A stretch of DNA of 64,000 nt, from positions 62,001-126,000 of the forward strand of contig NZ_KB894810.1 of assembly GCF_000374645.1 (NCBI RefSeq), in the 5' to 3' direction. This stretch comes from Arhodomonas aquaeolei DSM 8974. GTDB lineage: Bacteria > Pseudomonadota > Gammaproteobacteria > Nitrococcales > Nitrococcaceae. Positions within the stretch are counted from its first letter, which is position 1. Every line of letters starts with the position of its first letter. Positions 33,658-37,909 of this stretch are shown one piece after another. A program made the position numbers and the translations under genes. Under the pieces are notes generated by a model that was given only the letters and a program-made list of their open reading frames with translations, did not search any database and had not been told where the DNA came from.

Positions 33658-34323
33658 ATGGCACCGCTGGCCCGCGCCGTCCTCCTCGACCTGGACGGCA
33701 CCCTGCTCGACACCGCCCCGGACCTCATCGGCAGCCTCAACGACCTGCGCGCCGAGCAGCACCTCGCCCCCCTGCCCGCCGGCCAGCTCGCCACCGTCGT
33801 CTCCCACGGCAGCGGCCCGCTGGTGCGGCGGGGCTTCGATATCGATCCGTCCGACACCCGCTTCGCCGGACTGCGCGAGCGCTTCCTGGCCATCTACCGC
33901 GAGCGCGTTCACCGCGAGACCCGCGCCTTCGCCGGCATGGACGAGCTGCTGGCGATCCTGGAGGCCCGGCACGTCCCCTGGGGCATTGTCACCAACAAGC
34001 CCGGCTGGCTCACCCGGCCCCTGGTGGCCGCGCTCGGCTACGGCGAGCGCAGCGGCTGCCTGATCACCGGCGACGACCTCGCCCTGCGCAAGCCCAACCC
34101 CTACCCCGTGCTGCAGGCCTGCGACGCGCTCGATCTGCCCCCGGAGGCGTGCGTGGTCGTGGGCGACGCCCAGCGCGACGTCGAGTCCGGGCAGCGCGCC
34201 GGCGCGATCACCCTGGTGGCCCTGTTCGGCTACGTCCACGCCGAGGACCGCGTCACCCACTGGGGGGCGGACGGCCTCATCGGCCACCCCCTGGACATCC
34301 TCAACTGGCTCGGGCCGGCCTGA
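33658..34323 (+). CDS. mupP: HAD phosphatase, probable N-acetylmuramate 6-phosphatase MupP
   Basis: This is a HAD-IA phosphatase of the Gph group, 221 residues. It has the nucleophile motif DLDGTLLDTAPDL, the lysine motif KPNPYP and the metal-binding GDAQRDVESGQRAG. Phosphoglycolate phosphatase and MupP share these motifs. I prefer MupP, which acts in peptidoglycan recycling upstream of AmgK/MurU, because the ubiG-mupP-yciK order matches Pseudomonas. Substrate proof is missing. Confidence 0.8.
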   Translation: MAPLARAVLLDLDGTLLDTAPDLIGSLNDLRAEQHLAPLPAGQLATVVSHGSGPLVRRGFDIDPSDTRFAGLRERFLAIYRERVHRETRAFAGMDELLAILEARHVPWGIVTNKPGWLTRPLVAALGYGERSGCLITGDDLALRKPNPYPVLQACDALDLPPEACVVVGDAQRDVESGQRAGAITLVALFGYVHAEDRVTHWGADGLIGHPLDILNWLGPA

Positions 34324-34430: not shown

Positions 34431-36506
34431 CTAGCGCAGGTGCTCGGCGGCCCAGCGCCCGACCTTCTGTTCACGTGCCTTGCTCCGGCGATACCCCTGC
34501 CGCGCCAGGTAACCCTGGCTCGCCGCCACGACGAACAGCAGGATCACCATGAATGGCGGCACGACGCCACGCACGAACGACGGCGCGTCCTCCTCGGGGA
34601 TGAGCGCCAGACTGAGCGTGTCCCCCTCCAGGCCGACATGCTCGACGACCCCCTGGACACGGAACTCGCGATTGACGGTGTCGCCCAGGAGCTCCGTCAG
34701 GGCAAGGCCCCGCCGTTCGAGGAACGCCTCCCGTGCGCCGCCCCCCGCCAGCTCGAAGCGGCCCTTCAGCTGCGTACGGACCTGCCCGGAGCGGGACCGG
34801 TTCCAGGCCTGGAACGGTTCTTGGACCTCTTTGACGTAGGCGGGCAGGAGAACCTTGAGGAGAAGTCTGGAGAACCAGACGGCGTCTTGCCGGGAGAGCA
34901 GCGCCGCATCGTCAGCCGCCAGCAGCGGCGACGACTCGTCGATGCGCTTGAACACGCGCTCCGCCCGGTAGCACCCGTCGGAGACGTAGTATTCGTCGCA
35001 CAGCGCCTTCACATCGGCCTTCAGCTGACCCAGCCCGCTGAGAAGGCGGCGGTCGTACCGGCGCATGAGCGCACGCTGGTACCGCGGCAGGTCCACGTCC
35101 TCGGCGGGACTGCCGGTATAGAGCCTGAATATCGCCTCCTGCAGACGCTGGAGCTCGGGCGAAACCGTCACCTCGGGCAGCGCCCGCGCCGGCGCCCCCC
35201 ACACCAGGCGCGAGCAGTCGAGCATCGAGGTCACCGCCGAACTCGGGCTGCTCAGCCGGCAGCCCGCCTGCCCGGAGATCGCCACAGTGTCCCCCGGCCA
35301 CAGCGTCACGTCGCGCAGCGCCTGCGGCCCGTCGGCATCGATCTCCTCCGGACCGCTCAGCAGATTCCAGGCCATGGGAAGGGAAACGCTCAGCGGCGAG
35401 GAAAGCACCCAGGCCAGGATCAGCAGCAGGGCGGCACCGATGGCGAGAACGGCATGGCGAATCCAGTGGTGGATGGGGAAACGCCGCCGCTGTTCATACA
35501 GTGACAGCGAGCCGTGCTGGAGCACGTGCCGTTCCGCGTCGACCTCGACCTCCGCCGCCGTCATCGGTAGGCGCTCCCACAGCGGCGGCAACCACGAACC
35601 CGGGTAGGTCAGGTCGAGATACTCCATGCGGGGAACGGCAACACTGATGTTCGTCTCCTGGACGGTCTGCCGCGTCATCACCCGCTCGAGCGGCCCCCTC
35701 AGGCGCTTCACGTCTACCGCCTTGCCACCGATGGGCCACATCGGCGCGGCGAGATAGCGCCAGACGCCAAGCAGGGCCACGAGGAGCGAGGCCGCACAGC
35801 CCCAGGCCAGATCGAAACAGGCGAAACCGAGCACCCCCAGCAGCCCCAGCAGACACACAAGCGCGCCCGCGCTGCCGCGCGTCTCGGCGTCCAGTCTCAG
35901 CCGGGCCTCCTCACGGGTTTCACGACGCTGCCCGAGCAGGGTCACCGCGCTCTCTTCGGCACCGTCCCCCCCGCCCTGCGAGGCCGCCGCCGAAGCGCTT
36001 GCGCCCGTGGTTGCCGCCCCGGAGGAGGAAGGATCGGCGGAGAAATCCCCGGACGCCACGCGGGCCTCGGCGCGCTCGCTGCGCCGGTCGAGTGCCACCG
36101 CGTCGGCCAGGGTCCGGCCGTTGAGCTGCACCACCAGCGCCGTCCGCTTGGCCAGGACGACCTCCGCCTCGTTGTAATTCGCAAGGACGTTGCGCAGCCG
36201 CTGATGCAGCTCGACCTCGACGCCGTCGATGAGGTCGTGATACTGCCCCTGACCGGCATTGTTGCCCGTGATGCCGTGGCGTGCGTACAGGCCGTTGAGC
36301 TGACGAACCTCGCCGCCGTACTTGCGCCCGCTGTAGACCTCGCCGAGCGCCGCACGCTCTTCCTCGCTCAGCCCGCGGGAGGGGGCACTGTCCTGAAGCA
36401 CACGGAATCGGCGCTTCGACGCCCGTCGCCGGCCTTGGTAACTGATCACGCTGACAATCGAGACAATCAGCACGACCCCGAACAAAAGGATCTGTAACCC
36501 TTCCAT
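34431..36506 (-). CDS. igaA: IgaA/UmoB family inner-membrane protein
   Basis: In Enterobacterales IgaA is the membrane inhibitor of the Rcs envelope-stress phosphorelay, acting on RcsD. Here the 691-residue protein has the family topology: one N-terminal helix (about residues 5-24), a cytoplasmic part, two helices near 215-262, a second cytoplasmic part, one helix near 355-380, a large periplasmic domain and a final helix near 655-675. Shared landmarks are LSEEERAAL, a GVEVEL segment, LVVQLNGRTL, VKRLRGP, RHVLQHGSLSL, FPIHHWIRH, GDTVAISGQAGC and DCSRLVW. The last two supply the paired periplasmic cysteines. The start is ATG 36506 with AGGA upstream. It sits alone and convergent to mupP. No rcs gene is in the window. 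Confidence 0.82.
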   Translation of the reverse strand: MEGLQILLFGVVLIVSIVSVISYQGRRRASKRRFRVLQDSAPSRGLSEEERAALGEVYSGRKYGGEVRQLNGLYARHGITGNNAGQGQYHDLIDGVEVELHQRLRNVLANYNEAEVVLAKRTALVVQLNGRTLADAVALDRRSERAEARVASGDFSADPSSSGAATTGASASAAASQGGGDGAEESAVTLLGQRRETREEARLRLDAETRGSAGALVCLLGLLGVLGFACFDLAWGCAASLLVALLGVWRYLAAPMWPIGGKAVDVKRLRGPLERVMTRQTVQETNISVAVPRMEYLDLTYPGSWLPPLWERLPMTAAEVEVDAERHVLQHGSLSLYEQRRRFPIHHWIRHAVLAIGAALLLILAWVLSSPLSVSLPMAWNLLSGPEEIDADGPQALRDVTLWPGDTVAISGQAGCRLSSPSSAVTSMLDCSRLVWGAPARALPEVTVSPELQRLQEAIFRLYTGSPAEDVDLPRYQRALMRRYDRRLLSGLGQLKADVKALCDEYYVSDGCYRAERVFKRIDESSPLLAADDAALLSRQDAVWFSRLLLKVLLPAYVKEVQEPFQAWNRSRSGQVRTQLKGRFELAGGGAREAFLERRGLALTELLGDTVNREFRVQGVVEHVGLEGDTLSLALIPEEDAPSFVRGVVPPFMVILLFVVAASQGYLARQGYRRSKAREQKVGRWAAEHLR

Positions 36507-37033: not shown

Positions 37034-37909
37034 ATGCAGCCCCAGCAGTACTGCCGCGACAAGGCCGCCCCGCCGGGCTCCAGCCTCCACTACGCGCTGC
37101 TGTTCGCCGACGACGCGGACAGCCGCGAGGCGCTGCTCGCGGTCAACGCCGTGCACGCCGAGCTCACCGCCATCCCCCGCGAGGTCTCCGACCCCGGGGT
37201 CGCTGCGGCGAAGCTCGCGTGGTGGCGCGAGGAGGTGGGACGCGCCCTCGACGGCGGCGCCCAGCATCCGGCCGCCCAGGCACTGGCCGCGGCGAATGCG
37301 CGCCGGGCCCTGCCGCGGGACGATCTGGAGGCGCTGCTCGACGGGGTCGCCATGGATCTGGAGTACGGCGGCTACCCGAGCTTCCGCGAGCTCAGTGTTT
37401 ACTGCCACCGCCTCGGCGGCGGGTCGGTACGGCTCGCGGTCGCCGGGTGCGGCGCTGCACCGGACACCGCCGCGACCCTCGCCCACGACCTGGGCATGGC
37501 CCTGCCCCTGCTCCGGGGCCTGCGCCGGCTGCGCCCGGAGCTGGAGGCGGGACGGCTGCACCTCCCGGAGGACGAGCTGGCGCAGGCCGGTCTGGAGCGT
37601 GGGCAACTGCTGCGCGAGCCCGACAGCGAACCCGTGCGCGCCTTCCTCGACGGGCAGGCCGCCCGGATCATGGACTTTCTCGACAACGCCCTAGCCGCGG
37701 TCCCCGACGCGGAGCAGCGGCGCCTGCTGCCGCTGACCGTCCACGCGCGGCTGTACCGTACCCTGCTGGAGCGCCTGCGTGCCGAGGGCATGCCCGTGCT
37801 TCAGCAACGCCACCACCTCACGCCCGTGCGCAAGCTCTGGCACGCCTGGCGGCACGCCCGTCGGGCGCGGGCCGCACACCGGCGACACAGCAACGGAGAC
37901 ACACAATGA
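37034..37909 (+). CDS. Squalene/phytoene synthase-family protein, probably non-catalytic
   Basis: This 291-residue protein has the all-helical squalene/phytoene synthase fold. The opening YCRDKAAPPGSSLHYALLF and the KLAWWREEVGRAL helix are characteristic. The first [13 protein letters not shown] motif (normally DxxxD after the F-Y-A-F-C-R helix) is replaced by NAVHAELTAI. The second (normally DLGxALQLTNILRDV) reads DLGMALPLLRGLRRL, lacking the terminal aspartate. That suggests no prenyltransferase activity, as in the NDUFAF6-like branch. The start at ATG 37034 is based on homology. Its TGA overlaps the yciK ATG, so the pair is coupled. Confidence 0.72.
   Translation: MQPQQYCRDKAAPPGSSLHYALLFADDADSREALLAVNAVHAELTAIPREVSDPGVAAAKLAWWREEVGRALDGGAQHPAAQALAAANARRALPRDDLEALLDGVAMDLEYGGYPSFRELSVYCHRLGGGSVRLAVAGCGAAPDTAATLAHDLGMALPLLRGLRRLRPELEAGRLHLPEDELAQAGLERGQLLREPDSEPVRAFLDGQAARIMDFLDNALAAVPDAEQRRLLPLTVHARLYRTLLERLRAEGMPVLQQRHHLTPVRKLWHAWRHARRARAAHRRHSNGDTQ

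Follow-up and report, generated by a model that had tools for sequence, protein, structure and literature searches.

The window, a 64,000-nucleotide stretch of the Arhodomonas aquaeolei DSM 8974 genome, carries on its minus strand an open reading frame (36506..34431) that translates into a 691-aa protein of the IgaA family. In the Rcs stress relay of enterobacteria, IgaA serves as a membrane-bound brake, and RcsF is the sensor lipoprotein that releases this brake. The igaA gene lies antisense between a mupP-like gene and a gene of the squalene/phytoene synthase (SQS/PSY) family:

33658..34323, plus strand: mupP-like HAD hydrolase of the interrupted operon, upstream of the break (Pfam HAD_2; synteny)
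34431..36506, minus strand: IgaA-family inner membrane protein, 691 aa, start ATG at 36506 (Pfam PF07095, E 8.3e-35; translation)
37034..37909, plus strand: SQS/PSY-family gene of the interrupted operon, downstream of the break (Pfam SQS_PSY; synteny)

A Pfam search with the 691-aa protein returned one family only, IgaA (PF07095), at 120.5 bits against a family cut-off of 25 bits, with the alignment spanning residues 74–463. Against PDB sequences, phmmer matched residues 388–526 to the periplasmic domain of E. coli IgaA (E 1e-4), a match that takes in the GDT..ISG..C and DCS..(V/I)W stretches of the window protein. Identity is 23% to E. coli IgaA and at most 28% to any homologue found. Hydropathy delimits five membrane regions (residues 1–26, 209–249, 236–256, 345–380 and 641–669) in the IgaA order, in agreement with an AlphaFold2 model, and the protein divides as follows:

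36429..36506, minus strand: TM1, residues 1–26 (hydropathy; model helix 2–39)
36051..36389, minus strand: cytoplasmic domain 1 (cyt1), residues 40–152, an OB-like beta-barrel (model pLDDT mostly 80–95; match to 4UZM)
35916..35927, minus strand: R-R-E-T motif, residues 194–197, corresponding to R188–T191 of E. coli and Salmonella IgaA (alignment)
35739..35882, minus strand: TM2–TM3 hairpin, residues 209–256 (model and hydropathy)
35520..35714, minus strand: cytoplasmic domain 2 (cyt2), residues 265–329, beta-rich (model; G262 equivalent invariant)
35367..35474, minus strand: TM4, residues 345–380 (model and hydropathy)
34596..35354, minus strand: periplasmic domain, residues 385–637 (top Foldseek matches 9BJ0/9BIY/9BIZ, E 5e-6 to 2e-5)
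35259–35261, 35214–35216, 34998–35000 and 34971–34973, minus strand: periplasmic Cys codons (Cys in 22/22 homologues)
34500..34586, minus strand: TM5, residues 641–669 (model and hydropathy)

The AlphaFold2 model was built from 21 sequences and has a mean pLDDT of 69 and a pTM of 0.50. Foldseek ranked IgaA structures in all of the first five places for it (E 5e-6 to 3e-4), and the modeled cyt1 superposes on E. coli IgaA cyt1 (4UZM) with a Z-score of 9.4 and an rmsd of 3.0 Å over 97 residues. The periplasmic part fits the IgaA crystal structures loosely (rmsd 8–12 Å) in a region where model confidence is low, and we take it as support for the family rather than for structural detail. The full-length IgaA homologue with five membrane helices that the earlier note had read from the letters is thus borne out by the profile match, the membrane topology and the Foldseek matches.

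Functional studies of enteric IgaA single out residues whose fate in the window protein can be followed by alignment. R188H, T191P and G262R, as well as loss of the C404–C425 disulfide, weaken repression by Salmonella IgaA (PMC5744062). Repression of RcsD by E. coli IgaA runs both through contacts in the periplasm and through cyt1, which faces the PAS-like domain of RcsD, and RcsF relieves this repression (PMC7418988, PMC13317618). The equivalents of R188, T191 and G262 are all identical in the window protein, and its C416, C431, C503 and C512 match IgaA C404, C425, C498 and C504, respectively. The IgaA-like periplasmic cysteines that had been proposed are therefore all present, here and in 22/22 non-enteric homologues. 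The R188 and G262 equivalents are likewise invariant among these 22 sequences, while the T191 equivalent is kept in 18 of them; in terms of the R-R-E-T motif, R and E are invariant (22/22) and T is found in 18. At the position of E. coli R97, in the cyt1 switch, the window protein likewise has an arginine. Retention of all six invariant functional positions (R188, G262 and the four cysteines) stands well above background, since, of 286 positions conserved among enterics, 42 are retained in at least 80% of non-enteric homologues.

The partner-facing surface behaved differently. Among the 11 periplasmic RcsF/RcsD-contact residues given in PMC13317618, 3 are identical in the window protein and 0 are kept in at least 80% of non-enteric homologues, a pattern that is weak evidence when taken alone because just 15 of 125 conserved periplasmic enteric positions are kept in these homologues. 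The simplest reading of the alignment would be that selection maintains the core of signal transmission and that the partners differ. Compared with IgaA/YrfF/UmoB/GumB of Enterobacterales, then, the window protein shares the PF07095 match, the five membrane segments, the two cytoplasmic beta domains, the four cysteines, the R188/T191/G262 equivalents and the occurrence as a solitary gene, but it differs in its mostly unconserved contact residues, its low sequence identity and a genomic background that lacks RcsD and RcsF.

That background was examined across the whole assembly (3.96 Mb in 48 contigs, estimated 100% complete). The RcsD_ABL profile found no match in the window genome, and RcsF found none at E 0.001; an RcsF-like match below the cut-off (E 0.037), inside a 1075-aa frame, was dropped as chance. 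The only HPt domains are those of a BarA-type hybrid kinase and of two frames of 783 and 2020 residues; judged by size and HPt number, the first of these frames is CheA-type and the second, with multiple HPt domains, ChpA-type. RcsB-like matches are limited to generic LuxR-type regulators, of which the best shares 32% identity with E. coli RcsB and lies on a contig that encodes no HPt protein. Extending the RcsD_ABL and RcsF searches to 22 genomes (21 with a full-length IgaA, including the window genome, and one with a fragment) gave 0/22 positives, whereas the E. coli control was positive in both; the 20 other non-enteric genomes with a full-length IgaA, mostly Alcanivoracaceae, all lack RcsD and RcsF. 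The earlier remark that no rcs gene was in view therefore extends to the entire genome, with no canonical rcs locus elsewhere according to the RcsD_ABL, RcsF and HPt searches. With the Rcs phosphorelay (RcsF-IgaA-RcsD-RcsC-RcsB), the window genome shares one component, IgaA; RcsD and RcsF are absent, and there is no convincing RcsB. The window protein is, in short, a bona fide IgaA-family member in a non-Rcs setting.

In two Stenotrophomonas genomes that carry igaA (L071, L073), several LuxR-type response regulators share 39–42% identity with E. coli RcsB, clearly closer than those of other carriers.

The assembly's 48 contigs and the limits of profile searches leave some room for a canonical Rcs system that sits elsewhere in this genome and was missed through assembly gaps or divergence. 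A highly diverged RcsD may indeed lie below the profiles' reach, although its phosphotransfer domain should then have shown up in the HPt search. The estimated completeness of 100%, the negative or accounted-for RcsD_ABL, RcsF and HPt searches, the same negative RcsD_ABL and RcsF result in 20 other IgaA genomes, and a best RcsB match that is LuxR-type, 32% identical and without an HPt protein on its contig make such a hidden system highly improbable. A different possibility is that the enteric mechanism persists with a swapped target: the window IgaA would repress an Rcs-like histidine phosphorelay in which a hybrid kinase, e.g., of the BarA/GacS type with an HPt domain, takes the place of RcsD. 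The window genome does encode a kinase of HAMP-HisKA-REC-HPt architecture (contig C9, near rnc-era-recO-pdxJ), and R97, placed opposite T411 of RcsD in a model of the E. coli proteins (PMC13317618), is kept in 20/22 non-enteric homologues. Nonetheless, no genomic link connects the kinase gene to igaA. Since BarA/GacS-type kinases are general rather than specific to IgaA carriers, we consider this exchange unlikely, at perhaps one chance in a handful.

The position of the gene bears on how it arrived. In 21/21 same-family relatives with a readable locus the ubiG-mupP-SQS/PSY-yciK region is without igaA, and in 20 of these 21 the SQS/PSY gene directly follows mupP with a gap of ∼210 bp or less. 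GC3 of igaA is 0.85, vs. 0.90–0.96 for seven neighbours. Given the operon without igaA in relatives, the antisense position and the lower GC3, igaA was most likely gained at its present site, antisense inside the operon. The earlier statement that igaA splits a mupP-yciK neighbourhood holds, with the addition that the SQS/PSY-family gene also belongs to that interval and is native there. At the edges of the insertion, neither repeats nor promoter or terminator signals were informative, viral contigs contained no igaA relative, and in the plasmid collection the only relatives were E. coli records of chromosome size labelled plasmids. These PLSDB entries (NZ_OL790696.1, NZ_CP134663.1 and NZ_CP141089.1; 4.8–4.9 Mb, with igaA) appear to be E. 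coli chromosomes that were mislabelled.

The earlier note had also made much of the gene being solitary. Solitary it is, but this is not unusual in itself: E. coli K-12 igaA, which maps between nudE and yrfG at 3.53 Mb, is likewise 1.2 Mb from rcsD-rcsB-rcsC at 2.31–2.32 Mb. What stands out is that the relay is missing, not that neighbours are. Of the suggestion that the locus marks a horizontally acquired Rcs-like module, the acquisition part agrees with the evidence for gain at this site; the module does not, as no second component travels with igaA here or at related loci.

In the organism's own order IgaA occurs sporadically, in 3/54 genomes, from three different families, and in a class-level sample 4 of 369 genomes matched, one of them spuriously. 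A Pfam IgaA match of 20 bits (genome G172), below the cut-off and in an ABC substrate-binding-like ORF, was dropped. A phylum-level sample yielded 15 genomes of one family, taken as Enterobacteriaceae because of their scores of 945–1190 bits, plus two sporadic matches. Scanning 84,980 named species genomes recovered at least 20 full-length non-enteric igaA loci in 19 genomes, a lower bound because the scan relied on one peptide pattern. The non-enteric carriers are Alcanivorax/Alloalcanivorax, one Pseudomonadales MAG, Stenotrophomonas (2), Alkalilimnicola, Natronospira, Rhizobacter and an Ectothiorhodospiraceae MAG, and all have a single igaA, as does the window genome, except Alkalilimnicola (one genome, two copies). 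In that genome, Alkalilimnicola ehrlichii AK92, one paralogue is convergent with a protein kinase-ankyrin gene and the other adjoins a DsbA-like gene (L063, L068).

Neighbour clustering over 24 igaA loci found no gene common to loci beyond close relatives, Pfam assignments of ORFs adjoining igaA across lineages pointed to unrelated functions, and within the Alcanivoracaceae alone igaA occupies several unrelated genomic locations. A distant Pseudomonas protegens IgaA homologue has been mentioned in passing (PMC4661788), so homologues outside enterics are not wholly new; our literature search found no paper treating IgaA without Rcs. The window gene is part of a wider, little-described set of IgaA outside Rcs.

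Like the window protein, the homologues from Alcanivorax/Alloalcanivorax, Stenotrophomonas, Alkalilimnicola, Natronospira and Rhizobacter are full-length and solitary, occur without RcsD/RcsF and keep the same conserved sites, but they form one clade that excludes it and are 22–28% identical to it. In the tree, a 100/100 branch sets the enteric sequences apart, and the remaining non-enteric sequences group in a clade of their own. The window protein stands alone between the two on a branch of length 1.73, its exact position being unsure because of the long branches. By tree path its nearest sequences are enteric, which, together with an antisense insertion into an operon intact in 20/21 relatives and the lower GC3, is what a recent horizontal import from Enterobacterales would have in its favor. 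An identity of 23% to E. coli IgaA and of no more than 28% to any homologue found, and a branch that falls outside the enteric clade, make such an import very improbable; as judged from the phylogeny, the window protein branches deeply and on its own.

The same long branch and the sporadic occurrence (3/54 genomes in the order) are what might be expected of a partner-less remnant, or of a moonlighting protein with, e.g., a role in membrane stability, in which the fold is kept and the regulatory function lost. We think this improbable too: the frame is open over its full length, deep branches agree in keeping the four cysteines and those cytoplasmic loss-of-function sites that were tested, and igaA is present in many Alcanivoracaceae. 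A relaxed function of the window protein is nevertheless possible, given its branch length.

We favor, with a probability of roughly 0.6, the reading that the window gene encodes a full-length IgaA-family inner-membrane regulator working without the Rcs phosphorelay. Its function as an IgaA-type transmembrane repressor, as in enterics, is predicted from homology at 22–28% identity, and its partner is probably different from RcsD. On the periplasmic side, the disulfide-stabilised domain would sense an envelope partner or anchor to it; on the cytoplasmic side, the OB-like domain would keep a membrane sensor protein switched off. Because RcsD and RcsF are both absent, both partners must then be other proteins. 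One candidate of the right kind would be the BarA-type hybrid kinase with its HPt domain, and the protein may control an unrecognised phosphorelay, as the earlier note had suggested.

IgaA has been studied almost only as the RcsD brake, and it is essential there because of Rcs. A full-length IgaA without RcsD and RcsF separates the intrinsic machinery (disulfides, R188/G262 and the cyt1 switch) from Rcs-specific contacts, and carriers lacking both proteins offer a natural system in which igaA deletion may be viable and the new partner findable. More tentatively, at odds we would put a little short of even, IgaA may represent a broader class of transmembrane repressors controlling other sensor proteins in several lineages, the Rcs role being one enterobacterial recruitment. 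If so, a TM1 plus cyt1 version from Fulvivirga would show the cytoplasmic domain to be a separable module.

Fulvivirga kasyanovii (Bacteroidota) encodes two stand-alone TM1 plus cyt1 proteins of ∼149 residues (L074:68-514 and L075:4490-4933), with Pfam IgaA matches under the cut-off (E 7e-4 and 2e-4, respectively). A MORN-repeat protein is encoded 145 bp downstream of the first copy. In the Ectothiorhodospiraceae MAG (L065:3352-5154), a MORN_2 repeat protein is encoded two genes from igaA, which may be coincidence.
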